A DNA stretch of 64,000 nucleotides from a virus: positions 1-64,000 of the IMG/VR virus record IMGVR_UViG_3300029286_003689. One strand, given 5' to 3'. The notes under the pieces are model-generated. The model was given only the letters and a program-made list of their open reading frames with translations, was not told the DNA's origin and made no database searches. This document shows, one piece after another, positions 1-60,822 of the stretch (position 1 is its first letter; the number at the start of each line of letters is the position of its first letter). The position numbers were made by a program, and so were the translations under genes.

Positions 1-2523
1 TTAAACGGGCTCCGCGCAAAACCGGCAACCGATAGACGAACCCGTATCCCAGCGATAGTAAGACGTAACCCGACCCCGGGAACCGCAATACACGCCGCCG
101 CCCCAATTACCGCCAGCAATCAGCTTTACATCATTGGAATAAATAGGGCGATACAACTGTCCTTTATCGCCTGGCAGATCATACCAAGCGGCTGTAACTG
201 CTGCGTCATACATCATTGTCTGCTCATCTAACCACTGCCAGAGAGCACCGCAGGCGTCTTCTACGCCTATGTTGGAAATCATACGCCTTGAGGCTGTGTC
301 TATATGGCCACCGGTAGTGCCAGGATCTCCAGCTCCATTAATGTTAGTCGCTTCGTTTGAACCTGTTGCTATTACCTGAAACTCTGGGTCAGTTAACATC
401 TTCTTCTTTACCGCTCCGCCGTCGTCAGTAAAGTCGTTCCAGTCGCGGGTGTCGGTGATCGTGGCTCCATAGACTGAGGCTGTGGATGTGCCGGTGCCGG
501 AAGCAAGGTAAATATCTACCCACTTGCTAATACCTTCACTATAAACCATACCTTCAGGCGCAGAGACTGGCCTATGGTTTAGATCCCAAATCGAAGCAGG
601 CAGAACGTCGCCAGCGACAAAATCGGTCAAGGTGTGGCCTGAAATCGTTCCTACGGCAACACAAAGCCCGTGGAAACCGCCTATTTTACGGCTGGATGTA
701 GTGCTATAGCCTGAAGGATAAGTGGTGCTGGCTGATAAGAGTATTTTAGGGGCTGTGCCAGATACGGGGACGCAAGCATAAATATAAAAGTCTTTGCCTG
801 CGCGGTTTGCAGCTGTGGTGTAATTCGTCGGGCTGGTAGTATCCCAGTTGGCCGCATTTGATACGTCTATTTCCGTCTGAGAAGTTATATAATAGACATT
901 CCCATTTATGGCAACCGATAATAAGGTTGGAGACGATATAGTGTATCTATTTACAGCTGTGCTATAAGGAGCCTTAAGCGCCCACTTATCGGCCCTGTCT
1001 CTTTGGTATAAACCAGGGAACATAGGAAGGCTTGCTTTTGTATCGGCATACGCTTTGCTACTTGGATTTAATAACTCCCATCGTGTATTCGCTAAATTAT
1101 ATTCCACGAGTGCTACATAACCAGCAGCTGGAATATCACCGGCTAATAAAGCAGATCCGCCCTGTTTGGTAACAGCATGCGCGGTTAAACCGTCTGGTGA
1201 AAAAGTCGGCGTGGTTGATGTATTGGATCCCGATGCTACAAAAGCAACTAAAGTTAAATCTGCAAGCGAAATATCCGGGCTATAATCAGCTGTTATAGCG
1301 TCTACTGTCCCAGAGGCAGTTACAATAGAAATGCTCCCAGTAGGGCCTTGTGTTCCCCTGCTTCCTGATACTGATATTGTCCAATCGGTAAAGGTGCCGG
1401 AACCGCCAATATCAAGAACATTAACTACTAAGGTTGTGCTTGAATAGCTTGTTACCTGACCGTGCATATAGTTAGCAGAGTTAGCGTCGGAGGAAATCAA
1501 AACAAATTGTCCGGCTGCAAACTGTTTTCCGGATTGAATAGTAAATGTCTTACTTCCGGTTGCTATGGCTATGCTTGAGGTTGAGGTAGCTTTAAGAGCT
1601 GCTGCGTAATTATTTGCAGCAGTAACGTCCAGGCCTGTCTGCACGCGGTCTGCGGCGGTGGCTATCTTATCTAAACCTGTTTGAACTCTGTCGGCTGCTG
1701 TAGCAACGGCATCGGCATCGGCACTATTTTTTGACGCTAAGGCTTCTCCTGCCTTTGTGGTAGCTATACCGGCCTGAGTCGTTGCAGTATCTTTATAACC
1801 TGACGTTGCTGTTTTATCTAAACCTGTCTGCACGCGGTCTGCGGCGGTTTGAACGGAGTCCGCATCTGCGCTATTCTTTGAGGATAAAGCAGCTACTGCG
1901 CTAAGCCCGGCATTTGTTTCAGCCGTCTCTGCGTTTCCTTCAGCTGTTTCTGCTGCTGTCTTGGCAACCACTGCCGCATCTCTGGCAGCCTCGCCGTCAT
2001 CAACTAAGCCACTAAGGATCTCGATATAGGCTTCAGTATCAGTACTCGTAGGTGTTTCATCTATCGGAAATTTAACACATCTTGATAATTCTTCGATATA
2101 CTGCTGAGCTATCATCGTAAGCTTATCAACCGCTTTTTCTACGTCTTCAGCATAAAACGGGCCGCCGTTCTTCCAATCAGTCTCTTGAGTAAGAAGCTCT
2201 TCGCGCGCTAAAGTGATTTTCTCGCCAGTAGCTAATAAAGGAAGACCAGAAACTACCGTCGGATAAGTAACATACTCATTATTGACATTGACAGAGTAAT
2301 TACTGGTTATCTCGGTTAAGGCCCCTGCGGTATCGGTTTTATAAAGCTTAATATCGCTTCCGTCGACTGTACTAATAGTAAAAGTAAAATCCCAATTCCT
2401 TGTGACTCCATTACCGTTATAGGTAATCTTATTCGTAGTGTCTGATATTTTCGCAAAAGCTGATGAACAAAAAATACCAAACGCCATCAATAGAATCCCA
2501 AATGAAACAAGTAGTTTCTTCAT
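1..2523 (-). CDS. DGR-diversified tail-fibre-like protein of prophage A, with signal peptide
   Basis: 840 aa. Residues 1-24 form a classical signal peptide: two lysines, a hydrophobic core, and cleavage after AFA. Residues about 25-150 resemble the N-terminal virion-attachment domain of T7-type tail fibres (YNGNGVTRNWDFTF). Residues 175-310 hold alanine-rich repeats built on ADRVQTGLDK, probably a trimeric coil, followed by a collagen-like GPTG spot. The last 200 residues form a formylglycine-enzyme/C-type-lectin-like domain ending in a variable region (about 800-837) and the conserved tail GCRFCAEPV. The C-terminal half closely matches the fibre at 42914-45250, while the N-terminal halves are unrelated. 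The start is supported by AAGGAGAG about 9 nt upstream, inside the end of the preceding gene. Role, inferred: variable receptor binding. Odd: a phage fibre with an export signal. Confidence 0.85.
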   Translation of the reverse strand: MKKLLVSFGILLMAFGIFCSSAFAKISDTTNKITYNGNGVTRNWDFTFTISTVDGSDIKLYKTDTAGALTEITSNYSVNVNNEYVTYPTVVSGLPLLATGEKITLAREELLTQETDWKNGGPFYAEDVEKAVDKLTMIAQQYIEELSRCVKFPIDETPTSTDTEAYIEILSGLVDDGEAARDAAVVAKTAAETAEGNAETAETNAGLSAVAALSSKNSADADSVQTAADRVQTGLDKTATSGYKDTATTQAGIATTKAGEALASKNSADADAVATAADRVQTGLDKIATAADRVQTGLDVTAANNYAAALKATSTSSIAIATGSKTFTIQSGKQFAAGQFVLISSDANSANYMHGQVTSYSSTTLVVNVLDIGGSGTFTDWTISVSGSRGTQGPTGSISIVTASGTVDAITADYSPDISLADLTLVAFVASGSNTSTTPTFSPDGLTAHAVTKQGGSALLAGDIPAAGYVALVEYNLANTRWELLNPSSKAYADTKASLPMFPGLYQRDRADKWALKAPYSTAVNRYTISSPTLLSVAINGNVYYITSQTEIDVSNAANWDTTSPTNYTTAANRAGKDFYIYACVPVSGTAPKILLSASTTYPSGYSTTSSRKIGGFHGLCVAVGTISGHTLTDFVAGDVLPASIWDLNHRPVSAPEGMVYSEGISKWVDIYLASGTGTSTASVYGATITDTRDWNDFTDDGGAVKKKMLTDPEFQVIATGSNEATNINGAGDPGTTGGHIDTASRRMISNIGVEDACGALWQWLDEQTMMYDAAVTAAWYDLPGDKGQLYRPIYSNDVKLIAGGNWGGGVYCGSRGRVTSYYRWDTGSSIGCRFCAEPV
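11..124 (-). repeat. Variable repeat A (VR-A) of a diversity-generating retroelement
   Basis: 114 bp aligning without gaps to the template repeat at 42723-42836. My hand count gives about 17 differences at template adenines (T on the plus strand) and about 12 at other bases. The excess at adenines marks it as a DGR variable repeat. The non-adenine changes show that the template at 42.7 kb was not its immediate donor. The last 17 bp, through the stop codon, are identical to those of VR-B. It encodes the ligand-binding face of the lectin-like domain. Confidence 0.75.
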
Positions 2524-17386: not shown

Positions 17387-17704
17387 TTAAATATCGTCTG
17401 TCTCCGGAGGAATTTCTTTTTTAAGACTTTCTTGTTCTGATTTATATTCGTTCTGCATTTGCAGAAAAGCTTCTGGGGTTATATCAGCCCAGAAGAGTTG
17501 ACCTATAGATTGTTTTCCACAATTAAAATCTGTTTTGTTGTCGCCGGCAAAAGGGTTACGTAACACGCCGGATACACTCAACAAACGCCACATTAACCGT
17601 CTACCTTCAGCTAAACGCAAGACCCGGACAATATCACTAAGCTCGCGTTCCCTGAGCCTCTTGTCTCGTTCAGCTATTTTTTTACCTCTCTCTTCAGCGT
17701 TCAT
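17387..17704 (-). CDS. Bbp19-like phage protein
   Basis: 105 aa. The segment LAEGRRLMWRLLSVSGVLRN, then NPFAGDN and SIGQLFWADI, matches the Bbp19-like family found next to portal genes of BPP-1-like podoviruses. Function unknown; its fixed place beside the portal suggests a head assembly role. It overlaps the portal stop by one base. The prophage B counterpart at 58093-58407 has the same FFARAIYQTSGIF core. Confidence 0.7.
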   Translation of the reverse strand: MNAEERGKKIAERDKRLRERELSDIVRVLRLAEGRRLMWRLLSVSGVLRNPFAGDNKTDFNCGKQSIGQLFWADITPEAFLQMQNEYKSEQESLKKEIPPETDDI

Positions 17705-32935: not shown

Positions 32936-32939
32936 TTTA

Positions 32940-33011
32940 TTGCGGGGGTGGGAATCGAACCCACGCTTATCCGGGTATGAACCGGACGCCTTTCCGCTTG
33001 GCTACCCCGCG
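32940..33011 (-). tRNA. tRNA-Met (CAT anticodon)
   Basis: 72 nt, CCA not encoded. Acceptor CGCGGGG with CCCCGC and a C1/A72 non-pair; D-arm GCC...GGC; anticodon stem TCCGG/CCGGA with loop TTCATAC; T-arm GTGGG-TTCGATT-CCCAC; discriminator A. C1/A72 is the hallmark of bacterial initiator tRNA, but only two of the three G-C pairs of the initiator anticodon stem are present (C29-G41 instead of G-C). It could also be read by lysidine synthetase as Ile(CAU). Confidence 0.85.
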
Positions 33012-33091
33012 AGATCTTAGTTTTCGCTTCAATTTCTTTATAAGCCTAAGACTATTTTGCAAAACAATATAAGCACCTATGCCAGTAATCG

Positions 33092-38820: not shown

Positions 38821-38845
38821 GTCCTACCACTGAGCTACCTCGGCA
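38821..38845 (-). other. Truncated tRNA 5' sequence, candidate attachment junction
   Basis: On the minus strand GCCGAGGTAGCTCAGTGGTA is the 5' acceptor strand and D-arm of a bacterial tRNA. The following bases (GGACTGGCAAG...) do not continue a tRNA: no anticodon arm, no T-arm. It is 75 bp behind the integrase. Integrases often use tRNA genes, so this is the best candidate for attL/attR. Which side is host DNA is not certain. Confidence 0.5.
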
Positions 38846-41280: not shown

Positions 41281-41592
41281 TTAGGTGAATGTATAGTATC
41301 GGTCTATTTTCTTTATCGTCGTGATAAAGGGTATTTCAGTCTTATATTTCTCTATCTGATCACGCAGGACGTTGGAGCCGGTAAACATCACGGATATTTT
41401 GTCGTCTAATTTAAACTGTAACGTCATGCACAGCTCGCAATTCGCTTTCTTATAATGGCTATCTTTAATTCTATAATCCAATACCGTAATCTCTCGATTA
41501 ACCACGTCATCGAGTTTTATCTTATTGCCTTCTAACGGCATAGTTTCCCGGGCGAATTCGTTAAATCGCTTGGGCTGTTTTTCCGGCGACAT
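41281..41592 (-). CDS. OB-like small protein coupled to the DGR reverse transcriptase
   Basis: 103 aa. After a short basic leader, LEGNKIKLDDVVNREITVLD, then LCMTLQFKLDDKISVMFTGS and IPFITTIKKIDRYYTF form an alternating beta pattern with one helix, like an OB-fold nucleic-acid-binding domain. Three Cys occur. It has its own AGGAGATA ribosome site and overlaps the RT gene by 32 bp. It is not the helical-bundle Avd accessory protein. Inferred: binds template RNA or cDNA during mutagenic homing. Confidence 0.6.
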   Translation of the reverse strand: MSPEKQPKRFNEFARETMPLEGNKIKLDDVVNREITVLDYRIKDSHYKKANCELCMTLQFKLDDKISVMFTGSNVLRDQIEKYKTEIPFITTIKKIDRYYTFT

Positions 41593-42592
41593 TTAATATC
41601 TCCTGTAGTTTGTCCAGCTGTAGCTTAAGGCCTAAGTTGTGGCAGTTGGCCCAGCGCATCCATCCGGTATATGAAGCGATGCAAGAGCGAAAGTATATAA
41701 GGGTGATCCTGCCCGCGGCCAAGAGCTTAGGTAATATCTTTAAGCGGCGCTTTACTCTTATCGCCGTTGACTTTCTTAAGAGTACGTACTTTGGAAAGTG
41801 CCGGTAACCTAAGAAGTCAACGCCTTGGGAGACCGGGAAGAGTTCGCATTTGCTCATCTTTAAGCCAAGCGTTTTATCTAAAAATATCTTTAAGTATTTA
41901 GCAATCCGGCGCAGTTCTGCTTTGTCGTTATGGAAGAACAAGAAGTCATCGCAATAGCGCACGTAATTTTTGACCTTGTAGACGTGCTTGACGTACTGAT
42001 CTAACTCATTAAGGTAGATGTTACCGAACCACTGGCTGGTGTAGTTTCCGATCGGGACGTTCTGGCCGCCGCCAATTCCGTAAATAATAGCTTTGATTAG
42101 GTTCAGAGTATCTTTGCATTTAATCTTGCGCTGTAAGATATTAAAAAGAATGTCGTGTTTTATAGACGGGTAAAACTTAGAGATGTCGCATTTAAGGCAA
42201 TACTTATTTACCCGGACAAACTCCATAGTCCGCTGGCTTCCGGCGTGCAGACCTTTACCATCGATGCAGGCGTAGGAGTCGTGAATAAACATCGGCTTGT
42301 AAATTGGTTCAAGGATGTTCATTAAAGCGTGATGGACGATTCTATCTGGTGCAAACGGTACGACGTAAATAATACGCTCCTTGGGTTCGTGGACATATTT
42401 AATACGGTATACCGATGTCTTAAATTTTTTGCTAACTAACATCTCTTGTATCCTCTTTAGGTTCTCGTCTATATTCAGGTCAAAGACTCTTACCTGGCGT
42501 TGCCAAGTTTTACCTTTACGTGTTTTGGCATAAGCGAATTTTATATTCTCGGTTGAAGTGATTCTCTCGTAAAGATTGCCATGCCTCTTCAT
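41561..42592 (-). CDS. Diversity-generating retroelement reverse transcriptase
   Basis: 343 aa. RT motifs: YCLKCDISKFYPSIKHD (catalytic D136), the DGR-type IGNYTSQWFGNIYLNELDQ (181-199, in place of the QGxxxSP of other RTs), YVRYCDDFLFF (YxDD Asp 215, 216), LKMSKCELFPVSQGVDFLGY. A C-terminal thumb with WMRWANCHNLGLKL. No maturase or endonuclease domain. The enzyme copies the template repeat RNA with errors at adenines. It lies directly downstream of the template repeat. Confidence 0.9.
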   Translation of the reverse strand: MKRHGNLYERITSTENIKFAYAKTRKGKTWQRQVRVFDLNIDENLKRIQEMLVSKKFKTSVYRIKYVHEPKERIIYVVPFAPDRIVHHALMNILEPIYKPMFIHDSYACIDGKGLHAGSQRTMEFVRVNKYCLKCDISKFYPSIKHDILFNILQRKIKCKDTLNLIKAIIYGIGGGQNVPIGNYTSQWFGNIYLNELDQYVKHVYKVKNYVRYCDDFLFFHNDKAELRRIAKYLKIFLDKTLGLKMSKCELFPVSQGVDFLGYRHFPKYVLLRKSTAIRVKRRLKILPKLLAAGRITLIYFRSCIASYTGWMRWANCHNLGLKLQLDKLQEILNVAGKTAQAI

Positions 42593-42658
42593 TGTTTATA
42601 TGGGTCGGAAGATTTTCGGTTTCCCTACTAACCTTCCAGCCCCTCCGTTGTGTATTTT

Positions 42659-42676
42659 GCCTTGTAACGGCAAGGC
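42659..42676 (-). other. Hairpin in the RNA between template repeat and RT
   Basis: GCCTTG (42659-42664), 6-nt loop, CAAGGC (42671-42676). On the minus strand it lies about 45 nt downstream of the template repeat, where DGR template RNAs need structure to prime cDNA. The region 42593-42722 has no supported gene; an open frame reading through the template is a by-product. Confidence 0.45.
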
Positions 42677-42722
42677 TAATGCATCCAGCCAGGAGTTTAT
42701 TTTCTCCGCACATTCCCCTGTA

Positions 42723-42836
42723 TCCGCGCAAAACCGGCAGCCGATATTCGTATTCGTATTCCAGCGGTAGTTATTCGCATTTCGATACCGGGACCCCGCA
42801 TTCGCGGCGTTACTCCAATTACCGCCAGCCATCAGC
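42723..42836 (-). repeat. DGR template repeat (TR)
   Basis: 114 bp aligning without gaps to the variable repeat at 42924-43037 (offset 201 bp). All 13 differences are at adenines of the sense (minus) strand, of 27 adenines present; none of the other 87 positions differs. Its asparagine (AAT/AAC) codons are the classic DGR source of codon variety. The downstream flank replaces the GAGCCCGTTTAA of the variable repeat by GATACAGGGG, giving the IMH*/IMH difference. Confidence 0.9.
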
Positions 42837-42884
42837 AACCGATGACGCATTAGCCTGTGAAACTCTACTTTTCAAAAAACATCG

Positions 42885-42897
42885 CGGACGTGGTCCG
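42885..42897 (-). other. Hairpin downstream of VR-B (IMH-associated)
   Basis: CGGAC (42885-42889), 3-nt loop, GTCCG (42893-42897), on the 3' side of the fibre stop codon at a distance of 16 bp. Hairpins/cruciforms just behind the variable repeat promote target recognition in characterised DGRs. The stem is shorter than usual. The same place behind VR-A is outside the window. Confidence 0.45.
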
Positions 42898-42913
42898 TGT
42901 CCGGTCTACTTCG

Positions 42914-45250
42914 TTAAACGGGCTCCGCGCAAAACCGGCAGCCGATACTCGAAGCCGTAGCCCAGCGGTAGTAAGTCGCAGTTCGAGACCGGGACCCCGC
43001 ATTCGCGGCGTAACCCCAATTACCGCCAGCCACCAGCTTAATATCACCACCTGAATCTGAGTTGTCCACTTCGGTAGCGCCTGGGTCAGCAGAAAAAGTT
43101 GTATAAACAGAACCTTTTGCGCCAGGTAAATTTCCCCAGTATCCGGTTGAGCCATAAGGATAATATGTTTGCGTCCTTAGCCATTGGTTCATTACACCGC
43201 AGGCATCCTCTACGCCTATGTTTGATATCATACGCCTTGAGGCTGTGTCTACGTGGCCGCCGGTGGTCCCCGGGTCTGCTGATCCGGTAATGTTGGTCTC
43301 TTCGTTTGAACCGGCTGCTATGGCCTGGAATTCGTCATCCTCAAGCATCCGTTTCTTAACGGCTGCTCCGTCATCGGCAAAGTCCGACCAGTTCCGGGTA
43401 TCTGAAATTGTTCCGCCGTAAACTGAGGTTGTGCTGCCTCCGGTCCCCGAGGCGAGGTAGATATCTACCCACTTATTAGTGCCTTCGCTAAATACCATGC
43501 CTTCCGGGTTCGATACTGGCCGGTGCAGGAGATCCCAAATTGAAGCTGGAAGAACGTCGCCAACGGCAAAGTCGGTTAAGGTATGGCCTGAAATCGTTCC
43601 TACGGCAACGCATAGCCCGTGAAAACCGCCAATCTTGCGGCTTGTTGAGGCTGAGTAGCCTGATGGCGTGGTTGAATTGGCTGATACCTTAATCGTGGGA
43701 GCTGCGCCGGACCCAGGCACGCAGGCGTAAATATAGAAGTTTACTCCTGCTCTGTTTGCGGCCGTCCTGTAATCTGTCCCGCTTATCGTATCCCACGACG
43801 CCTCTAAGGACAAATCTACCTCTGCTTGAGCAGTCAAGAAGTAGACTGTTCCGTTGATGTCTACGCTGAGTTTGTTGGGTGTCAAAATGATGTACCTATT
43901 TGCTGCTGTTGAGTAGGGTGTCTTTAAAGCCCACTTCTGGTCGCGCTGGTAAAGGCTTGGGTAAAGGGCTGCTAACTTTTCGGCAAGATAACCGGCTGAG
44001 GCGTCACCTGAGACGTTCTTGACTTTTTCGTCGGTTCCTCCGCCAGCAGGATTAAGTAATTCCCACCTGGTGTTAGCGAGATTATATTCTACGATTGCCA
44101 CAAAGCCTGCTCCAGCGATATCTCCGGCTGCTAAGGCTTGACCGCCTTTCTTAGCGATGGTATGAGGTGTCAGGCCGTCAGGAGCAAATGTCGGGGTTGT
44201 GGATGTATTGGCGCCGCTTGCTACAAAGAAGCAAATAGCCAAATTTGACAGAGTCATATCCGGGGTGTAGTCTGCGGTTATTGCGTCTACTGTGCCTCCC
44301 GCTGTGGCGATAGGTATACCTGCGGCTGAGGCGGCATAGGCTGCTGCTTGGTCTCTGGCAGTCTCGGCGGCTGCTTGGGCCGTCTCGGCGTTGACTTCTG
44401 CGGCCTCTGCGTTAGTTTCCGCAGTCTCGGCGTTCGTCTCAGCGATTTCAGCGTTGGTCTCTGCTGTTTCCGCTGCGGTTTGGGCGGCCTGCGCTGCGTT
44501 CTTGGCCGTTACTGCGTCGTCTTTGGCTGTTACGGCTGTGTCTCTGGCGGATTCCGCGGCCACTTGCGCGACCTCTGCGTTAGTTTCCGCAGTCTCGGCG
44601 TTCGTCTCAGCCAACTCCGCGTTGGTCTCTGCTGTTTCCGCTGCGGTCTTTGAAGCTGCTGCTTCTGAGGCTTTGGTAGATGCTGTTGCTGCGCTCGCTG
44701 CGGCGGCGTTCTGAGAAACTAAGGCTGCGGCCGCGCTGGCTGCTGCCGCGACTGCGGCCTCGTCGGCGTCAAGTATTGTGTTCTCTATGCCGTCTCCGTC
44801 GTCGTTCCATTTTAAGCCTTTACCCGGGTCCGGTTCGGCAACTGTAAGGTCTGTGGTCCCGCCGATCTTAGTCTTTAAGGTTCTTTTAACCTCTTCTTTT
44901 ATATCCTGAACTCCGGCTACGGCTTTATCAACCATTGCTTCAACCACTTTAGCTTGGAAACCTGCCGAGGTAGTCAAGGGTACGGCTTGCGACTTTGGAA
45001 TATCCCTACCAATAACAACGTAATAATCGTCAGAAGGAGCGTCTGCAAAAGTTACGACTCCTCCTGGTGTATCGTCGTCAAATTCAACAGTATAATCACT
45101 GCCAAGCGTCTGTAAGGTCTGAACGCCCGTTTCTACGTCCTCAAGATAGACACGGATATTTGCTTCGGCTATCAAAGCAAAACCGAATGAGAACTCCGTC
45201 GTTACTCCGTTGCCAAGCGTTTTTACTGGTGTATAATTGTCAGCTATCAT
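42914..45250 (-). CDS. DGR-diversified tail-fibre-like protein of prophage B
   Basis: 778 aa, with AAGGAGG 7 nt upstream. Residues 1-125 form a T7-fibre-like virion-binding domain (GNGVTTEFSFGFALI) without a signal peptide. Residues 160-310 are alanine-rich heptad repeats such as AETAETNAE, a long coil. A domain (about 315-400) shared with the prophage A fibre precedes the conserved C-terminal half. The lectin/FGE-like domain ends in the variable region (about 738-775) and GCRFCAEPV. Inferred: trimeric receptor-binding fibre diversified by the DGR 64 bp downstream. Confidence 0.9.
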   Translation of the reverse strand: MIADNYTPVKTLGNGVTTEFSFGFALIAEANIRVYLEDVETGVQTLQTLGSDYTVEFDDDTPGGVVTFADAPSDDYYVVIGRDIPKSQAVPLTTSAGFQAKVVEAMVDKAVAGVQDIKEEVKRTLKTKIGGTTDLTVAEPDPGKGLKWNDDGDGIENTILDADEAAVAAAASAAAALVSQNAAAASAATASTKASEAAASKTAAETAETNAELAETNAETAETNAEVAQVAAESARDTAVTAKDDAVTAKNAAQAAQTAAETAETNAEIAETNAETAETNAEAAEVNAETAQAAAETARDQAAAYAASAAGIPIATAGGTVDAITADYTPDMTLSNLAICFFVASGANTSTTPTFAPDGLTPHTIAKKGGQALAAGDIAGAGFVAIVEYNLANTRWELLNPAGGGTDEKVKNVSGDASAGYLAEKLAALYPSLYQRDQKWALKTPYSTAANRYIILTPNKLSVDINGTVYFLTAQAEVDLSLEASWDTISGTDYRTAANRAGVNFYIYACVPGSGAAPTIKVSANSTTPSGYSASTSRKIGGFHGLCVAVGTISGHTLTDFAVGDVLPASIWDLLHRPVSNPEGMVFSEGTNKWVDIYLASGTGGSTTSVYGGTISDTRNWSDFADDGAAVKKRMLEDDEFQAIAAGSNEETNITGSADPGTTGGHVDTASRRMISNIGVEDACGVMNQWLRTQTYYPYGSTGYWGNLPGAKGSVYTTFSADPGATEVDNSDSGGDIKLVAGGNWGYAANAGSRSRTATYYRWATASSIGCRFCAEPV
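42924..43037 (-). repeat. Variable repeat B (VR-B) of the DGR
   Basis: 114 bp at the 3' end of the fibre gene, 87 bp from the template repeat. 13 differences from the template, all adenine-directed and giving A to G, T and C. Fresh, clean pattern: the element has homed recently, or homes regularly, into this copy. Confidence 0.9.
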
Positions 45251-45642: not shown

Positions 45643-45816
45643 ATGAAAAACTTACCGGATGAGGGATTAATCTTAAGCAGGGTGCGCGAAGAAAATAAAC
45701 GGTTACTTACTTCACGATGGAAAGCCCCTGTTTTTATGATAATCTGGTTAATATTAGCTGTAATTTTATTTTTCATTGGATACGCAGTTATTTTTTCTAA
45801 GATTAATCATTCGTAG
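45643..45816 (+). CDS. 57-aa membrane protein coupled to the lipoprotein
   Basis: Reads MKNLPDEGLILSRVREENKR then a basic region and one transmembrane helix (about 29-51, VFMIIWLILAVILFFIGYAV). It starts 2 nt after the lipoprotein stop and runs 14 bp into the 3' end of the opposing giant virion gene. Too short for common ORF filters. Probably works with the lipoprotein. Confidence 0.55.
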   Translation: MKNLPDEGLILSRVREENKRLLTSRWKAPVFMIIWLILAVILFFIGYAVIFSKINHS

Positions 45817-48800
45817 AAAGCCTCCCAAATATCTGTTCCCATTGAGTCCCGCCTGGAGTATTTAGAAGAATTGCCCTAATAAAGTTGTTTATCTTTTTAT
45901 CATCATCTTCCGCTCTAAACGATGTGCTCAACTTACGAAAAAATTTATTACTAAATTCCACGGCCGGTATCGGATTAGAACCGTATTTAAATGACTGAAT
46001 TACGGTTCCAAAAAAAGGAACAGTCTGTAGTCCATTTTCTACTATTTCCTGTTCTATCGTTTTCTCTTCATCGTCTGGCTCTTCGCCACTCATAGCATCT
46101 ATAAGCGCCCTGATCCCACGTCTAATCCCTACCTCTGTAATAGTAGCGAGGCTTAGAAAGAAGAAAATATTCATCGCCTGACTCATACGACCTTCTTTTA
46201 TACCAGCTCGCCATAAGTCATGTCGGACAAGGCTCCAACGGTTCAACATAAAAGACTGGAACTGAAAAATCAGCTTATTCACCGATTTATAATGTGTTAT
46301 TTTATCTCGCGTTAGAATGGCTGGGGCATCTTTAAAAAATGAACTGGATTGTGTTCTCCGAACTATCCTTTGAGCATAGTCTATCCCGTCCGGGTTAGGA
46401 TTAGAAAAATCGACCTCAATATTGTTTTCATTGCAGTATTTCTTATAGGCCCCAGCAGCGATTGAAGAAGCAGTTAAACGGTCGAGATTTTGCAATGCCC
46501 AAAAGCCTGCCTTTTCGACTTCTGATACAACTCCCTTTCCTTCCCCAAATTCCAGAAAGGCGGGATCATCTCCAATTCTTTCTTTTACCTCTGGGAAATT
46601 ATCCAAAATAAACTTTCGCCAGTCTTTATTACCGGCTATGGCGTACGCTCCTTCAAATGCGTAGTTCCCAATTAAAGCCGCCCCATCCATAAGGGCGGTC
46701 GGCTGAATAAGCGTTGAAGAAAGCCTATACGCGAGGACTGCCGCACCGGTATGCTTTCTAAGTGTGTCTAAAATATTATGCCTCTCTCCGGCGATTTTGC
46801 CTTTCCGCGCTATTAAATCAACCCAGTCTCTCACTATTTCTTGACCTAATTCACCTACTGCTTCGGCGTATTCCTCCGAAGAAGCCAATTCTCCAAGCCA
46901 CTTTGTTTCTTTACCCACAGTTACAAAATAAGCAGCGTTATCAACGTGCTTAAGGAATACCTCCATTGCATTAAGCTTAATCTTTTGCTTCCCGCCAACC
47001 CTACGCATAGCAAAACCATGCTTAACGTTCTTTTTAGGAGCAAGACCAAATTGTTCGACACTATCGCCAAAGCGTGATCGTATTTCAGAAGCGCTCATCT
47101 TCTCGAAATCCGTCATAAACGGAAAGTAGTTTTTGACTGCGTAAAAAGGTTCGTTATAGACAAGACGCATAATTTCCGAAATAAGGGGCCTAAATGTTTC
47201 AAGCTTTTCTCGCATTAAGTCATAAAATTTCGTTTCTTCGTCGGTAAGTATGATATTTTCTATTTCCTGTTCGGTTAACCCCATATTGATAAGCTTCTCT
47301 GTCCCGCCTTCCTGCATTTTTGCGGCGTACACGCCTATACGTTCAAAATTAAGGACATCAAGCTTTAATTTAGTAGCCAACTCTTTAACCGTATCCTCTG
47401 CGTCATTTTTAAGCTGTAAATACGTAGTAAAAGCCTTATCTATAGTCTGTTTAAATGTTTGGTAGTTTGCCCCCGCATACTTCTTAAAACCATCAAGTAA
47501 GTCAAAAATTACATCCATAGGAGTTATGGCGAGGTCAAGGTCTTGGAGCTTATTAAGGGCGTCTGTGTATTTATTTTTAAGTTTCTCTCCGGCATTAAGC
47601 TTTTCGCCTATTGGCGCCCGGGTAGATTCTTTTTCTTCGAGAGGCTTGGCGTCTCTCCGGATTTCTGCAAGTGCGGCCTGCTTTCTTTGTTCTTCCGCCA
47701 TCTGCCGTAATCGTAACTTAGCTTGTCCGATACGCCCCAACTCATCTATCGTATCTGATAATTCCTCCAACTCTTCGGTAGATATATCGGCTAAGGGCTT
47801 GCGCTCCAGAATATCTAATTGTTTTAATACCTCTTTAGGCATTTCTATTTCTTTACCCTCTTTTATTGCCCGTTCGATATATTCCCTTGTGCCTTGCAGG
47901 GCCTCTATGGTTTCGGTTCTATGCCCCTGTAACTCAAACTCGTTGACGAGCGCATCGATCGTCTGAGCGTATTCGACGGCTATGGTATTTGATGATTTTG
48001 CGCGTTCGGTAGATTTTTTAATATTACCCACTATCTCCGAACGTGTCTGTTTCTCCTTCATCTGACGCAGGCGCGTTACCACCTTTGGCAATTCTCTTGC
48101 CAAATCTTCTTTGGTTTGAATATTCTTTATAAGCCGTAAGAATTTACCTCTTTCATCAAGAGGAAGTCTTGCGGCTTCTATCATCTCAATAAGTTCACCC
48201 TGAACCTTTGAAATTTCTTCTTTTGTCTGTATCCGGCCTTCTTTTATCCCTTGCTCTGTGGCCTTAATCTTCTCGTTAAGAAGCGTGGTCTCGCGTTTAG
48301 TGATTAACTCCGGCCGGTTAGATTTTATCTCATCAATTAGGTCTTTTCGTGACCTTTCAAGTCCCTGTAAATACTCCTTAAGGCCAACCTCGTCATTAAC
48401 CTCTACTCCGAAATGATTGCGTAGCTCCTCCATAGCCTCGTCTGGCTTTAATCCGCCCTCTTTAGTAATATAAAAAGCTGGCGTGCCTTGTAACTCTTCT
48501 TTCAGATAAGCGTCTCTGTATTTTGTTATCCTGCCCTTAAAATACTGCCGAACAGTATCAATCTCCTGTAAAGCGTCCTTTGAGATTTCTACGCGCGCCT
48601 GGCGCTCTTCCATACCCTGTATTTGGCGCTGTAATGGGGTAATGCCAGAAACATCTGGCTTAGATTTTTCAGGCTTGATAAACTCTGAAACCTGTTTTTC
48701 TTTAGGCTTAGCCTCCTCTTCCTTAATCCCAATACTTTCCCTAAACTGTTTTATTATCTCTCCGCGCTTATTTATGTCTTTTTCTTGTGCTAAATCCTGG

Positions 48801-49885
48801 ACAAGCGTCTCAACTTCTTTTTTTATGGCTTCTCTTTTTATTGTCTGGGTTTCTCCTCTTGCCTCAATGACCGCTCCAGGTAATGATAAAAGACCTAAGC
48901 CGGCGGCCATCCTTGGGGCTGAATCAAGGAGCTGAGCTTTCCATTCCTCAAGAGACGGCTGGGCGTCCGGATTCTTTTCAATGGTTGCAGCAAGAGATTG
49001 ACCGCCGAGTTGGATTGCGTTTTGTATCTCTTCCTCTGCGATTTCCATTCCTACCGTCTTGGCGTATTTTTTTATGAAGTTAAAGATAAAGGTTTGACCG
49101 GCTTTAGTGCTCAGGGTTTTGGCTACCTGTTTACGTATTAACCCTCCGAAAGTCTTTTTTACTACTGGACCGCCTACTAAGAACATCTCCCCAAGCTCAA
49201 CAACTCCGGTAAGTGTCCCCGCTACTAAAGCTATGGGCTGGGCGGTTTTTCTGGATATGCCCTTTCCCACCATATCCAAATACATTGATCCACCTTCGCG
49301 CTCAAGGATGTTCTTTATTACACCGTAGGCAAAACCAGTTTTCATACCAGCGACAAATGCTCCGGGAACGGTTATGATCTCTTCCGGAAAAGCTACTTGC
49401 GGGCCTGCCTGGCCTGCTACGGCTGCAATCGTCCCAAAGCCCATGCCCATAGGAAAGCCCCATTTAAGACCTTCAAAGGTTGAACTAATCATATAAGGTA
49501 TTTGCTGGGCGGCCTCTCCGATAGTGCCTTTAATCGGATGCTCCACAAGAGAAAGGTCTTTATAAGGTCCGGCCATAGTAATATGGTAATCTCTTTCTTT
49601 CGTGCCCTTTTGCAGAGCTTCTTCGTCGGACATCTTACCCTGCATAGCCGAGGCGCCGTAAAGGCTGTATGTTTTCTGAGCAGTATCCATGCCGATTTTG
49701 TATCTTATATAGTTAGGCAAAGAAACATAGTCAGGCTCTTTGACAAGAAGCTTGCCTTCTTCCAGAACACCCTCCGCAGAAACACCGCCAAACTCCGCAA
49801 ATGGGTCGTTCTTAACAGGGGGCACGGATTCTTGTCCTTCTTCAAGAGCCACTCCGCCAAATTCTTCAAAAGGATTATTTGGCAC
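45803..49885 (-). CDS. Giant internal virion protein of prophage B
   Basis: 1360 aa, starting at GTG and overlapping the previous gene by 11 bp. The N-terminus repeats the motif NPFEEFGGV / DPFAEFGGV (residues 3-34), perhaps a peptide that binds a partner. Hydrophobic helices at about 140-200; a coiled coil at about 370-790; a C-terminal part (PFYAVKNYFPF..., FQSFMLNRWSLVRHD) as in the giant protein of prophage A. Neither the M15 nor the HExxH motif of that protein is present. Position: ejection core (gp16-like). Confidence 0.65.
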   Translation of the reverse strand: MPNNPFEEFGGVALEEGQESVPPVKNDPFAEFGGVSAEGVLEEGKLLVKEPDYVSLPNYIRYKIGMDTAQKTYSLYGASAMQGKMSDEEALQKGTKERDYHITMAGPYKDLSLVEHPIKGTIGEAAQQIPYMISSTFEGLKWGFPMGMGFGTIAAVAGQAGPQVAFPEEIITVPGAFVAGMKTGFAYGVIKNILEREGGSMYLDMVGKGISRKTAQPIALVAGTLTGVVELGEMFLVGGPVVKKTFGGLIRKQVAKTLSTKAGQTFIFNFIKKYAKTVGMEIAEEEIQNAIQLGGQSLAATIEKNPDAQPSLEEWKAQLLDSAPRMAAGLGLLSLPGAVIEARGETQTIKREAIKKEVETLVQDLAQEKDINKRGEIIKQFRESIGIKEEEAKPKEKQVSEFIKPEKSKPDVSGITPLQRQIQGMEERQARVEISKDALQEIDTVRQYFKGRITKYRDAYLKEELQGTPAFYITKEGGLKPDEAMEELRNHFGVEVNDEVGLKEYLQGLERSRKDLIDEIKSNRPELITKRETTLLNEKIKATEQGIKEGRIQTKEEISKVQGELIEMIEAARLPLDERGKFLRLIKNIQTKEDLARELPKVVTRLRQMKEKQTRSEIVGNIKKSTERAKSSNTIAVEYAQTIDALVNEFELQGHRTETIEALQGTREYIERAIKEGKEIEMPKEVLKQLDILERKPLADISTEELEELSDTIDELGRIGQAKLRLRQMAEEQRKQAALAEIRRDAKPLEEKESTRAPIGEKLNAGEKLKNKYTDALNKLQDLDLAITPMDVIFDLLDGFKKYAGANYQTFKQTIDKAFTTYLQLKNDAEDTVKELATKLKLDVLNFERIGVYAAKMQEGGTEKLINMGLTEQEIENIILTDEETKFYDLMREKLETFRPLISEIMRLVYNEPFYAVKNYFPFMTDFEKMSASEIRSRFGDSVEQFGLAPKKNVKHGFAMRRVGGKQKIKLNAMEVFLKHVDNAAYFVTVGKETKWLGELASSEEYAEAVGELGQEIVRDWVDLIARKGKIAGERHNILDTLRKHTGAAVLAYRLSSTLIQPTALMDGAALIGNYAFEGAYAIAGNKDWRKFILDNFPEVKERIGDDPAFLEFGEGKGVVSEVEKAGFWALQNLDRLTASSIAAGAYKKYCNENNIEVDFSNPNPDGIDYAQRIVRRTQSSSFFKDAPAILTRDKITHYKSVNKLIFQFQSFMLNRWSLVRHDLWRAGIKEGRMSQAMNIFFFLSLATITEVGIRRGIRALIDAMSGEEPDDEEKTIEQEIVENGLQTVPFFGTVIQSFKYGSNPIPAVEFSNKFFRKLSTSFRAEDDDKKINNFIRAILLNTPGGTQWEQIFGRLSTND

Positions 49886-51740: not shown

Positions 51741-52154
51741 TTAAGCCTCCTGGAATACCATAGCCCACATTTTATAATCTCTATTTTTAAGGAATTTTAT
51801 CTTTGTCCCTTCGCAAATAAACCCTAAGAATTTATGCCACTTATTTAACTCTTCGCAGTCAAGGCTCAAGGTCTCAATGCGTTTGGCGCCTATCCTGTCT
51901 TTTAATTTATGGATAAAGTCTTTTATCTCCTGGCCGTCAAAGCTGTTCATCAATACCGAACACACCAGAAATCCCTCATAGTTTTTCTCGGCGTAATTGC
52001 GGTAAAAAATGATAGCCTTGACTATGCCTTCTTTTTCTAATGTCCAACCTTCATACATCTTCAAAATGGACTTTAGCTTATTGACTAAATCTCCGTCTCC
52101 AAAATCATTTAGTTCTATATTGGATAAATCCTCTTCTACGAATTCCCGTATCAT
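51741..52154 (-). CDS. GNAT-fold protein at the gp13 position
   Basis: 137 aa from the ATG that overlaps the nozzle-gene stop (ATGA); a longer frame to 52235 lies inside that gene and is unlikely. The sequence (EGWTLEKEGIVKAIIFYRNY, GAKRIETLSLDCEELNKWHK, FLGFICEG) reads as a GNAT acyltransferase. Same place as the DUF2833 protein of prophage A, but with little sequence in common. Possibly structural. Confidence 0.6.
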   Translation of the reverse strand: MIREFVEEDLSNIELNDFGDGDLVNKLKSILKMYEGWTLEKEGIVKAIIFYRNYAEKNYEGFLVCSVLMNSFDGQEIKDFIHKLKDRIGAKRIETLSLDCEELNKWHKFLGFICEGTKIKFLKNRDYKMWAMVFQEA

Positions 52155-54190
52155 AGTTTTGTCCCGTAATTGGCATCGCACATAATTGCCGTAATATGCA
52201 AAGGAAGCGGCTCTCTTTGCCTGACATAAAGACATTTTTCGGTCTCAAAGCTGTCGTCAAAAACTATTTCCCTGCTATCTCCATCCATAGGCAGAGGCGG
52301 CAGATCGTAGTATCCGGCTGGGTCAAAATTCTGTATTTTCTCCATCCTATACAAGGAAGGCCCTATCTCTCCACCGGCTGAGGCAACAAACCTTAGTTTC
52401 GCTTTATTTATGTTCTTAACCAATGTCTGGGTATTAAGGCCCTGTATCATAAAGCCAAGATTGAATGTTTTAATAAGCCCTTCGTATAATATGCCGATAC
52501 AGGCAACGGTAACTTCCCGGTCAAGCGTTAATACTCCGCCAGCCGAAACGGTATATTCGCCTAAATAACCGCCATCTCCGACGACAGATACTTCCATATT
52601 GGCGTAATCGGTTAGTCCGGATATCGTGCTTGCGCTTTTATACCATGAGGAGTAACTGTTCTGTGTAGGAGTAGTCAAGACTTCAACCTTAACAGTCGTT
52701 GCGTTTACATATTCAGTTATCTCAAAAATTCCTTTCTCAACACCTGTTGCGGTTTTATAATGAATCCGTCTGCCGACATCAGAAGCAGAAAAATCGTTCT
52801 CCGAAGAGGTTATTGCATCTGTCCCGTTAAAGGTAATCGTGCTGTCATATAAATCCTTGAACACTACGGAATTATCAAGATAAATGCAGTCTTTCATAAG
52901 TTCGGCTACATACCGCCAGTATGCCTCTCGATCCGCTTCTTCGCTCTCCTCGTCGGTATAGAATTCGTGGCGCAAAGGAAACTCTACCTCGCTGGCAAGA
53001 CGCTCAATGAACACGCCGTTGTCTCTTTCAATAAGAGCGAACAGGTCATCTTCGCCGGTATTTGGGTTATACATCTTGGCTATATCAAGAAATACGCCTT
53101 CCGTGTCGTGTTCATGCCAACCGACTATTCTCTCAATTTGATTAAAGTTCAACGATAAGAGCGCTCCGTCGTTCCTGAGCATAAAAACAAGGTCATTGCG
53201 GCCTTTGATGTAAACCAACTTCTTAATGCCGGTTTTCGTAATGTCGTAGCTGACAAAATTAGTATCGTCGGACTTAAAGCTTTCAGTAAGCAGGTCATAA
53301 GAAAAGTAGTCTACATTACGACCGAGGGCGTTAATATAGAACAGGAAGAGGTCTTTTCTTATCGGTTGCGTATTGTCTGTTCCGTCGGTATTCGTGATCG
53401 TGGCTTCTACCGAAGCAGGGGTTATCGGTTCGCTAACTGAGCCTCCGTTTACCGCAATCAAGGCTTGGGAAGAGCCTACAATAAGGCTATTTGAACCCCC
53501 CATAAGCCATATAATGGCCTCTGTAAGGTCTGAAATCGCAAAAATAACGGCATCATCGTCGTCAACCTCAGCCGGGACCGTAAAATCATCGTAAGAACCG
53601 GCTACGCTGCCGTAGATATTGGTCTTTTTCTTGCTGGGGCCTCCATACCAAAGCCTGCCCTTGTAAAAGCGTACACAGGCAGGCCAGCCGGTGGATCCGC
53701 TTGAGGGATCGTCAAATGGGTCGGAAGTTCTGGTAAAGGTGGCTAAGGTAAAGCTGGTTGCGCTTACCCGTGTAAGCTTCCTTGGTTCATAGCTATTGTG
53801 CACCGCATACATCACGTCGGCGTTTTGGTCGTATGATAATTCCTTACAGTGAGCCAGAGTATAAGGTGAAGCTACGTCTAAATCGCTGCCTCCACTCTGG
53901 ACAAGTCCGATATCTCCATTCTCATCGTAACTTAAAAATTTTATGTGGCCGTTATAGAAAAGTGCTATATAATCCTGTTCATTAGAGAATTTAAACTCTA
54001 CAAAACGGCAATCTTGAAATTTAAAGATAGTTTCAAAGCCTGGCCGGTAAATCGCATTACCCTTAAAATTGGAAAAGAAATTCCTAAAGACATCCGCCCC
54101 GCTTGTATAAATAGGCAGATCATACCGGCCGTTAAGATCGTGGTCTAATTTGCCTCTTGAGAAATTATTAAAGCCAGTGGATATCTTCAT
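52151..54190 (-). CDS. Tail tubular protein B-like nozzle protein of prophage B
   Basis: 679 aa. ISTGFNNFSRGKLDHDLNGR then YDLPIYTSGADVFRNFFSNF, KGNAIYRPG is a diverged form of the podovirus nozzle opening. The rest is beta-rich. Follows the tail adaptor with a 4-bp overlap. Shorter than the prophage A version (890 aa). Confidence 0.75.
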   Translation of the reverse strand: MKISTGFNNFSRGKLDHDLNGRYDLPIYTSGADVFRNFFSNFKGNAIYRPGFETIFKFQDCRFVEFKFSNEQDYIALFYNGHIKFLSYDENGDIGLVQSGGSDLDVASPYTLAHCKELSYDQNADVMYAVHNSYEPRKLTRVSATSFTLATFTRTSDPFDDPSSGSTGWPACVRFYKGRLWYGGPSKKKTNIYGSVAGSYDDFTVPAEVDDDDAVIFAISDLTEAIIWLMGGSNSLIVGSSQALIAVNGGSVSEPITPASVEATITNTDGTDNTQPIRKDLFLFYINALGRNVDYFSYDLLTESFKSDDTNFVSYDITKTGIKKLVYIKGRNDLVFMLRNDGALLSLNFNQIERIVGWHEHDTEGVFLDIAKMYNPNTGEDDLFALIERDNGVFIERLASEVEFPLRHEFYTDEESEEADREAYWRYVAELMKDCIYLDNSVVFKDLYDSTITFNGTDAITSSENDFSASDVGRRIHYKTATGVEKGIFEITEYVNATTVKVEVLTTPTQNSYSSWYKSASTISGLTDYANMEVSVVGDGGYLGEYTVSAGGVLTLDREVTVACIGILYEGLIKTFNLGFMIQGLNTQTLVKNINKAKLRFVASAGGEIGPSLYRMEKIQNFDPAGYYDLPPLPMDGDSREIVFDDSFETEKCLYVRQREPLPLHITAIMCDANYGTKL

Positions 54191-54798
54191 CTCTTATTAA
54201 AGTTCTCCGGATTATCGGCTGTCCTTGCCTGCTTGAATTTAGACCTATTTATCCTTATAGGACGGTTTTCTTGCCCGTTTAATGCGCTTGCCTCTGCCTG
54301 ATCTGACCTCTTAAGGGTATTTAAAGCAGTGAGTTTGTCCGGGTCCTGCGTAAGCTGCAAAGACACCTTCTCACCTAATTCGGCGCTCAGTGCCATGATA
54401 AACTCTGCGGAAAATTTAGTAACGTCGGTTTCGTCTTTGATGTATCTTACTTCCATACCTTCGTCATATTCCTCGTCGGTAAGTATCTGGTTTCCCTCAA
54501 CTGAATAATTATTTTCCTTATCCTGAACCTCACCAATACCTAAAAGCTTAAGGCAGTCCTTGGGATATTCATAGGCGTAGGCATAACCGAAGGCAGGGGT
54601 CTCTTCTAATTGAGCCACAACCTTTCGGCCAAGGGCAAAATTAGGCATAAGCTTCTTAAGCATAAACTGGCGGCAGATGTCATACCAGATTGCGAATACA
54701 CGCTCTACCGCAGTCTGCGGGTTATCTAAGCTATTTATGCTTTCTTTGCCTCCTAAGCGACTATATGCAAGATTACAAATCTGTTCTGGTGAATTCAT
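54187..54798 (-). CDS. Tail tubular protein A-like adaptor of prophage B
   Basis: 203 aa. EQICNLAYSRLGGKESINSL, then VERVFAIWYDICRQFMLKKL and FGYAYAYEYPKDCLKLLGIG show the gp11-type pattern seen also in 13757-14362. The basic C-terminus (RPIRINRSKFKQAR) may contact DNA or the portal. Confidence 0.75.
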   Translation of the reverse strand: MNSPEQICNLAYSRLGGKESINSLDNPQTAVERVFAIWYDICRQFMLKKLMPNFALGRKVVAQLEETPAFGYAYAYEYPKDCLKLLGIGEVQDKENNYSVEGNQILTDEEYDEGMEVRYIKDETDVTKFSAEFIMALSAELGEKVSLQLTQDPDKLTALNTLKRSDQAEASALNGQENRPIRINRSKFKQARTADNPENFNKR

Positions 54799-55445: not shown

Positions 55446-56381
55446 TTATATTGTGGTCGTTACGATTATTACCCTGGCACCCTCAGTCCTCATAGCGTTG
55501 ATCCAGAGGTCTATGGTGATATCCATTGAGTTGACCTTATTCGGGTTTTTCTCAACAGACAGGTCTCCTATTTCCATAGCAACGGCTACGGATTCAGGAG
55601 TTAGCGCAAGGCAGTTCCTTACGGTCCCGCTTGAAGGAGTTTCATCAAGCACGGGGCTTGTAACGGTAAGGCCCGTTTCGCTACCGGCGAACAAAGCCAC
55701 TTCAAACAAACCGGCTTTGCTAATTTTCCCGTCGGCAATCGGTTTTGCGTCCATATACAGGCTGTTGATAAACTTATCATCAGCCATTAACGCGCTGTTT
55801 TCCTTGCCCGTGATACAAAGCACGGAACCGCGTATCAGATCATACGGCAGATCGTTGTTGATGAACTTCTGGATAACCCCGTTGAGAATCGTGGAAGAGA
55901 TACCAGCAGTTCCGGCAACGGTAAGAACGCCATCAGTAGCAGCGCTGACTGATGTAGGAGCTGCGTCGGGCTGTCCGATAAGGACGGCGCCCTGAGCGGC
56001 TGAGGCGATAACGCGGTCAATCACGCGCTCTTTAGCGTTAACTAATTGTTTCAGGATGTCACTGGTGGGGTCTTTTAGAAGCTCATTGATGTCATATTTC
56101 GCATCGATGGTGATGGTTTTGGTGAACCGGCGCTTTGTTAACTGCCTGTTATCCACCGAATAATCGCCGTAGGACTTATTCGGGTTGCGGGTTGACACTT
56201 CTTCCAGCTCAATGCGGCCAATGCGAGCCAGATTGTTTGTTTTGCCTTTGGAAGGCAGATACGTTACTACCTTTGACCCTCCCAAAAGGGATTTGGTCTG
56301 CTGAGCCAACTCCATAAAGTTATCCTGGAAGATGAGCTTAGCAGCCTGGTCGATGCTCGGACTGTAAGTGTTGCTTGCCAT
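55446..56381 (-). CDS. Major capsid protein of prophage B
   Basis: 311 aa. NTYSPSIDQAAKLIFQDNFM, SKVVTYLP, RRFTKTITIDAKYDINELLK and KERVIDRVIASAAQGAVLIG, with a C-terminal MDITIDLWINAMRTEGARVI, resemble the Phage_capsid_2-type group of podovirus capsids. Unrelated to the Bbp17-like capsid of prophage A in spite of the same gene order. It should still adopt the HK97 fold. Confidence 0.75.
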   Translation of the reverse strand: MASNTYSPSIDQAAKLIFQDNFMELAQQTKSLLGGSKVVTYLPSKGKTNNLARIGRIELEEVSTRNPNKSYGDYSVDNRQLTKRRFTKTITIDAKYDINELLKDPTSDILKQLVNAKERVIDRVIASAAQGAVLIGQPDAAPTSVSAATDGVLTVAGTAGISSTILNGVIQKFINNDLPYDLIRGSVLCITGKENSALMADDKFINSLYMDAKPIADGKISKAGLFEVALFAGSETGLTVTSPVLDETPSSGTVRNCLALTPESVAVAMEIGDLSVEKNPNKVNSMDITIDLWINAMRTEGARVIIVTTTI

Positions 56382-58093: not shown

Positions 58094-58407
58094 TATTCGC
58101 CCCTTTCTATTGCGGATAAGACATCCTTATCCAATATTTTCCGGAAAAATAAGATATATAAAGTTTCCATCCCCTTTTGAAATGCTAACTGCTGACCTTC
58201 TAATGCCTGCGGATTATGAGCAAAATCCGGCGCTTCAAATATCCCCGAAGTCTGATATATTGCCCGCGCAAAGAACTTTCCGTCATCCGTAGAGAATAGA
58301 CGGTTAGCGCAATCCTTTAACATCTTAACCTGCTCGGCTCTCTTTGCGTCCAACTCGGCCTTTAACTTAGCCGCGTCTTGAAGCTTGTCTACTGTGCTTT
58401 TTTCCAT
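58093..58407 (-). CDS. Bbp19-like protein of prophage B
   Basis: 104 aa. After a coiled N-terminus, GKFFARAIYQTSGIFEAPDF and FQKGMETLYILFFRKI form the Bbp19-like core seen at 17387-17704. It shares one base with the portal stop and one with the scaffold start. Head assembly role presumed. Confidence 0.6.
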   Translation of the reverse strand: MEKSTVDKLQDAAKLKAELDAKRAEQVKMLKDCANRLFSTDDGKFFARAIYQTSGIFEAPDFAHNPQALEGQQLAFQKGMETLYILFFRKILDKDVLSAIERGE

Positions 58408-60449: not shown

Positions 60450-60822
60450 TTTTCCTTACCTCCTCGTATAATTGCTTTGGAGTTATGATCCACCATTTAT
60501 TGATACCTAAGAAATCCTTGCATATTCCGACGCAGGTTCTAAAGAACTTAAAACGCGGGTTAATCAACTCAACCTCACGCGCCATATATTCAGCGACAAT
60601 ATAACCGGCTTGAACTGCTTCTAAGGCCATATCGTTGGAATTTTTGGAGTAGTAATACATTCCTATCCCGCCAGTCGTCGGGTTAATCATAATGCTGGTA
60701 TTCTCAACAGGCCCGGCACACAGCAAGAAACAGTGGTTAAACTTCTTATGCAAAAACCAGTTCCACCACTTCGGCTTATTGATATTTTTAAAGACTACGT
60801 AGAATTTACGTCTATACTTCAC
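60442..60822 (-). CDS. Conserved phage protein between terminase and portal
   Basis: 126 aa. KFNHCFLLCAGPVENTSIMI and TCVGICKDFLGINKWWIITP then QLYEEVRK is a pattern I know from small phage proteins near terminases, with Cys/His spaced as in papain-like folds. Catalysis is not shown. Prophage A lacks it at this place. Confidence 0.5.
   Translation of the reverse strand: MKYRRKFYVVFKNINKPKWWNWFLHKKFNHCFLLCAGPVENTSIMINPTTGGIGMYYYSKNSNDMALEAVQAGYIVAEYMAREVELINPRFKFFRTCVGICKDFLGINKWWIITPKQLYEEVRKNG

Follow-up and report, generated by a model that had tools for sequence, protein, structure and literature searches.

Among described systems, those closest to the one treated here are the diversity-generating retroelements (DGRs) of the Bordetella podophage BPP-1, the archaeal virus ANMV-1, the crAss-like phages and Quimbyvirus. 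Roughly a quarter of all DGRs reportedly lack a recognised accessory gene (PMC7290462), and single DGRs with two targets are already known (PMC8008677). According to PMC10053308, Wu et al. 2018 put forward in their survey an additional DGR-associated protein that has no Pfam family, and this could be the product of the small gene, ORF103, described below. Here we analysed a stretch of 64,000 nucleotides (the window), bases 1-64000 of the 75,018-bp IMG/VR record IMGVR_UViG_3300029286_003689. The right-hand (A) of two podophages in this record carries a DGR, DGR-A, whose minus-strand order is target gene, template repeat (TR), reverse transcriptase (RT) gene and ORF103; its neighbour is phage B. 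The DGR system itself is of a known kind. We read DGR-A as a functional-looking DGR of a temperate, BPP-1-like podophage that belongs to an Avd-less RT clade with a partner of predicted oligonucleotide/oligosaccharide-binding (OB) type and shares its phage with a second DGR, of Avd type (probability about 0.85).

A preliminary description of the window, made from the letters alone, had reported a complete DGR with a 114-bp TR, a variable repeat (VR) in the adjacent fibre gene and differences only at template adenines. Its coordinates and counts proved exact. Of the 114 positions compared, TR1 and VR1 disagree at 13; each of these is one of the 27 template adenines, and the remaining 87 positions are all identical (hypergeometric p = 4.6e-10; reached by 0 of 200,000 permutations). 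The substitutions are to G (5), C (5) and T (3), and 13/13 fall in codon positions 1-2. Within the window TR1 is identical to VR1 at 101/114 positions and to a third repeat copy, VR2, at 85/114, the best background match being 49/114. The C-terminus of the target reads GGNW...GSR...YRW...GCRF, and from its sequence the VR region would adopt a C-type-lectin-like (CLec) fold. The 3' boundary of TR and VR is sharp, after GCGCGGA, and is followed about 20 nt downstream by a stem of 5-6 bp, read by eye, which is a candidate for the hairpin associated with the initiation of mutagenic homing (IMH). A stem occurs at the same place in phage B and in two related phages, G018 and C43; there it is GCCGAA/TTCGGC, so that the bases differ and the pairing is kept (by eye, unscored). 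The TR, the VR in a putative CLec C-terminus and the DGR-type RT bear out the description of the element as complete, and the IMH-like boundary with its hairpin candidate is in keeping with it. Elsewhere in the fibre gene, positions 44323-44668 hold repeats with a 21-bp period (AETNAE-type heptads), which are likely to form a coiled coil and have large indel potential.

RT1 carries both of the motifs reported earlier, IGNYTSQ and YCDD, and its best match among PDB sequences is the DGR RT 8ub7 (E 3e-57). Inactivated catalytic residues, which would have spoken against activity, were looked for; the RT1 reading frame is intact, all catalytic motifs are invariant, and the RTs of close relatives are intact. 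An RT tree unites the ORF103-type RTs (79 rows; Shimodaira-Hasegawa-like approximate likelihood ratio test 99) in a single group that includes RT1 and is separate from the Avd-type RTs, among which the RT of the second DGR, RT2, is placed. The phylogeny suggested in the preliminary description therefore sets RT1 in an ORF103-type clade of DGR RTs.

Related genomes allow the adenine bias to be followed between phages. Contig L005 is 99.98% identical to window positions 5675-1 (5,675 bp) and then extends past position 1, where it carries a TR and counterparts of RT1 (90% identity) and of the ORF103 of DGR-A (95% identity). The window record ends at the repeat; since the overlap is near-identical, we infer that the L005 sequence is what follows position 1 in the window's own genome, where the TR and RT of this element, DGR-B, would lie. 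Both G018, which is a podophage of 43.6 kb, and C43, a contig of an Omnitrophota metagenome-assembled genome (MAG), have the DGR-B TR without a single change (114/114). Compared with this identical TR, adenine sites account for 15/15, 17/18 and 15/15 of the differences in the three VRs, and among the VRs themselves 20 of the 21 variable sites are at template adenines. Since the template is the same in all three phages and the VRs are not, the set amounts to a natural replicate of adenine mutagenesis, and the adenine-restricted diversity that the preliminary description proposed to seek in related genomes is present. Pooling 32 RT1-type loci gave mismatch rates of 0.65 per template adenine and 0.013 elsewhere in pairs preselected for adenine bias; the three-phage comparison is the cleaner one because the pooled pairs were chosen with an adenine-tolerant search. 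Collectively, the adenine-only differences, the intact RT and the identical TR with different VRs across phages strongly support, at the level of sequence, a DGR-A that is active or recently active. At two further loci (L008:2146-2459 and L009), a block of non-adenine sites distinguishes the VR from the TR next to it, the pattern that would result if a new template had taken over after the most recent homing event; L007, L008 and L009 have a TR in common. At L035:257-1567, one TR appears to serve at least four VRs within 1.3 kb.

ORF103 lies inside the interval of the preliminary description (41281-45250), where it went unrecognised. A hidden Markov model found it in 39/42 viral-contig loci and 71/80 GTDB-genome loci with RT1-type RTs. 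Avd was found in none of the ORF103-bearing loci, and the sole two Avd loci in this set (L151, L153) are without ORF103. At the loci examined, no Avd was seen beside RT1 or its ORF103-bearing relatives, and the only Avd of the record is that of the second DGR. Conversely, none of the 16 RT2-type loci has ORF103, nor do BPP-1, VP58.5, ACA1 and phiARM81mr. A reverse search that started from ORF103 returned a DGR RT in the flank at 67/78 loci and Avd at 0, and a search of 50,697 phage records gave only two ORF103 matches, both beside DGR RTs, one of them in ANMV-1. ORF103 and RT are neighbours in many phyla and in phage modules unrelated to one another. ORF103 may come before or after the RT, this gene for a ~100-aa protein in most cases overlaps the RT gene at its 3' end, and at three loci from MAGs of different origin (L089, L102, L104) the two are fused as one protein. 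Because ORF103 and Avd are mutually exclusive and ORF103 is sometimes fused to the RT, ORF103 is likely, on sequence grounds, to be an Avd substitute. Homologues of ORF103 were also seen in L186, L188 and L230, in which an RT was not found in the whole record.

The AlphaFold2 model of ORF103 (predicted local distance difference test score 89) has the order b1-b2-b3-a-b4-b5, which is the strand order of an OB fold, and ORF103 is accordingly predicted to be an OB-fold-like protein. A Foldseek search of this model against the PDB gave weak matches (E 0.05-0.7, best 0.056), largely to OB folds, namely the Rvb1/2 insertion domain, RPA and HIN-200. Against a viral library, the best Foldseek matches were RT-containing proteins. 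The model of the fused protein shows a DGR RT fold (template modelling score 0.87-0.89 to 8ub7/8ubd), a low-confidence linker and an OB-like domain. The ORF103 profile found nothing significant among PDB sequences or in NCBIfam, one sub-threshold match in Pfam and, among PHROGs, only a weak match to the uncharacterised phrog_19665. Bbp4 of BPP-1 was considered as a homologue of ORF103 and dismissed, as the two have no similarity.

Phage A carries a second complete DGR outside the window, at record positions 70269-73703 (L004:12270-15704), upstream of its terminase. All parts of an Avd-dependent DGR were found here: RT2, which is about 35% identical to RT1-type RTs, a bAvd gene (E 1.9e-15), TR2 and two small Lcl_C-domain targets of 149 and 176 aa. 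Adenines account for 16/18 mismatches between TR2 and VR3 and 11/13 between TR2 and VR4, the non-adenine ones being the last two bases compared. It is probable that the two DGRs of phage A operate independently of one another, with separate TR/VR pairs. No Avd-DGR is present at the matching place in phage B of the window; with DGR-A, DGR-B and the Avd-DGR, the record has three DGRs in or beside it. The same pairing was found in G018, which has both RTs and bAvd with adenine-biased TR/VR; the ends of its sequence lie between two neighbouring genes, in the manner of a circularly permuted genome. The pairing was also found in C43, which is complete by a 141-bp exact terminal repeat and combines an Avd-DGR with two Lcl_C targets and an ORF103-DGR with an Mtd-like target. 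C43 encodes a serine recombinase and a tape-measure protein and is therefore a long-tailed phage, so that the pairing of DGRs recurs across unrelated virion modules. In two further sequences (G043, G045) an Avd-type RT lies upstream of late genes of the A type, and both sequences stop within an Mtd-type target. In the literature searched, which did not include the main DGR survey (Wu et al. 2018), no phage with two DGR RTs was described. The Omnitrophota MAG has a further RT of 438 codons (G051:C44:41513-42139; RVT_1 E 3e-37) away from the prophage.

A PHROG search of the window revealed two complete podophage structural gene sets on the minus strand (Table 1), of which set B is accompanied by integrase, repressor, recT, exonuclease and replication genes. 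A 21-bp attachment (att) core derived from tRNA-Phe sits between the lysis-side genes of A and the integrase of B, and in two relatives (L008, L009) the phage end abuts an intact tRNA-Phe at the equivalent place. A search for relatives of the integrase found only one, a distant one. The integrase, the repressor, the att core and the ends of the relatives support the earlier claim that the element is carried by a prophage. The record probably represents two tandem podoprophages joined at the att core; a single large phage with duplicated modules is disfavoured because there are two terminases, two portals and two capsids as well as the att core. The early region of phage B also holds a tRNA-Met (CAT) gene (32939-33012). 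Just upstream of each fibre gene lies a very large protein, at 2525-8122 (1865 aa) and 45803-49885 (1360 aa); one of the two has an endolysin-like domain, and both are probably internal virion proteins.

Table 1. Positions of the features discussed, in window coordinates unless marked as record coordinates.
Feature	Position	Strand	Description or supporting match
ORF103	41281..41592	-	103-aa accessory candidate; overlaps RT 3' end by 32 nt
RT1	41561..42592	-	DGR reverse transcriptase, 343 aa, IGNYTSQ, YCDD; RVT_1 E 3.9e-18
TR1	42723..42836	-	Template repeat, 114 bp, 27 adenines, 9 AAY codons
Stem-loop	42885..42903	-	CGGAC-9nt-GTCCG, IMH-associated hairpin candidate, 20 nt downstream of VR1; pairing read by eye
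VR1	42924..43037	-	Variable repeat, 114 bp; codons 738-775 of target
DGR-A target	42914..45250	-	Mtd-type receptor-binding fibre, 778 aa, VR at 3' end; Pfam Mtd_2nd E 3.5e-16
Second Mtd-type target, phage B	1..2523	-	840 aa; Mtd_2nd E 5e-17; near-identical gene on L005
VR2 of DGR-B	11..124	-	Third repeat copy, 114 bp; 0 non-A and 15 A mismatches to TR of L005
One VR of second DGR (VR3 or VR4)	71979-72085 (record)
Other VR of second DGR	73182-73288 (record)
terL, set A (right-hand phage)	60819-62165	-	PHROGs
Portal, set A	58407-60206	-	PHROGs
Capsid, set A	55446-56381	-	PHROGs
Tail, set A	52151-54798	-	PHROGs
terL, set B (left phage)	19867-21360	-	PHROGs
Portal, set B	17704-19446	-	PHROGs
Capsid, set B	15476-16498	-	PHROGs
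Tail, set B	10789-13461	-	PHROGs
Tyrosine integrase, phage B	37755..38747	+	PHROG integrase E 1.9e-61; Phage_integrase E 3.4e-23
Helix-turn-helix repressor-like, phage B	36154..36744	+	HTH_3 E 1.2e-11; PHROG transcriptional repressor
att core GCCGAGGTAGCTCAGTGGTAG	38824..38844	-	21 bp, A/B junction; 5' part of tRNA-Phe

Several other explanations of these data were weighed. VR2 might be a second target of DGR-A, giving one RT, one TR and two targets, and its identity to TR1 and the enrichment of adenines among their differences (17/29) would fit. However, the other 12 differences are at non-adenine positions, so TR1 is not the template of VR2, and L005 carries its own RT and its own TR, with no non-adenine mismatch to VR2; L005 effectively rules the idea out and leaves it barely credible. 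A fossil element, whose repeats are kept by drift without recent mutagenesis, draws on the fact that a single genome cannot date events, but it is highly improbable given the absence of any non-adenine difference in VR1, the three independent VRs with an identical TR and the intact RTs of close relatives. The joining of the two phages at the att core could also be an assembly artefact. In favour of such a chimera, terminase, portal, capsid and tail genes are all present twice, in complete sets, the junction is a short shared core, and a scan of viral contigs for the A/B junction gave no second contig spanning it. Against this, the order of lysis genes of A, att and integrase of B is as biology expects and falls exactly at the tRNA-derived core, and 21 bp is shorter than the usual final assembly words. 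We consider a chimera possible though doubtful, and tandem prophages the preferred arrangement. Because both DGR-A and the Avd-DGR lie on phage A's side of the junction, and G018 and C43 confirm their pairing, the main conclusions hold whatever the nature of the junction.

The role of ORF103 also admits a plainer account, in which DGR-A is an ordinary DGR, ORF103 follows the RT by chance and has a generic phage role (nucleic-acid binding, or as a gene of the lysis region), and a host protein supplies any accessory function. Some ORF103 copies do occur without an RT, and crAss-like and other Avd-less DGRs exist without a recognisable ORF103. Chance, however, accords poorly with the retention of ORF103 as the RT's neighbour, whether before or after it, in many phyla and phage modules, with the three separate fusions, with its confinement to the flanks of DGR RTs among the phage records and with its exclusion of Avd; we regard this account as unlikely. 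Several observations nevertheless weigh against a role for ORF103 in place of Avd or against an active DGR-A. Neither ORF103 nor Avd was found at 3/42 viral and 7/80 genome loci, 11/78 ORF103 loci have no RT in the flank searched, and in G053, G054 and G056 ORF103 is present and the RT is nowhere in the record. ANMV-1 has ORF103, yet its RT, which sits on a long branch, is not a member of the main group. The structural matches to PDB entries are weak, the loci were collected by similarity to RT1, so that the clade count does not represent DGRs as a whole, and present-day activity of DGR-A is deduced from assembled genomes rather than from reads. With these points in view, we lean towards the wider proposal that a widespread Avd-free branch of DGRs uses a hitherto unrecognised OB-fold accessory protein, encoded beside or fused to the RT, instead of Avd. 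Under the same proposal, some phages stably keep two unrelated DGRs, the OB type for the receptor-binding fibre and the Avd type for small non-virion lectin-like proteins, and the pair is carried between morphotypes.

By analogy with BPP-1, RT1 would make cDNA from TR RNA (42723-42836), inserting bases at random wherever the template has adenine; this cDNA would take the place of VR1, which encodes the C-type-lectin-like tip of the fibre, and so alter receptor binding. ORF103 may do the nucleic-acid-binding job of Avd by holding TR RNA or cDNA on the RT. The second DGR, with its different RT lineage and Avd, would diversify the two small Lcl_C proteins, which are encoded near early genes. If this is true, the conserved, RT-fused OB-fold partner names the missing component for one large DGR branch, and ORF103 gives a direct test of what Avd does. 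Two independent mutators acting on two protein classes also raise the question of what besides the receptor tip a phage must diversify.

DGR-A resembles the DGR of BPP-1 in its Mtd-type target, in the order of TR and RT and in its setting in a temperate podophage with a tRNA att. The BPP-1 RT is 38% identical to RT1 over 93%, and the structures of the DGR ribonucleoprotein (8ub7-8ubf) are the best structural match. In contrast to DGR-A, which has no Avd beside RT1 and has ORF103, not homologous to Bbp4, after the RT, BPP-1 has Avd (bbp7) and one DGR. ANMV-1 (PMC4372165) shares the 114-bp repeats, an Mtd-like target and an ORF103 homologue, AJP62065, annotated as hypothetical, right after the RT; it differs in being an archaeal virus with one DGR and an RT on a long branch. 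The figure of the ANMV-1 paper draws an Avd arrow in the cassette (PMC4372165), and this assignment should be revisited. The lineage 3 DGRs of crAss-like phages (PMC7290462) have the same order of target, TR and RT without avd, whereas their RTs lie on another branch and a sequence search finds no ORF103 in cr55_1, cr7_1 or LMMB. Quimbyvirus (PMC8008677), like phage A, is a phage that diversifies one virion and one non-virion protein; it uses one RT for both targets, whereas phage A has two unrelated RTs with separate TRs.

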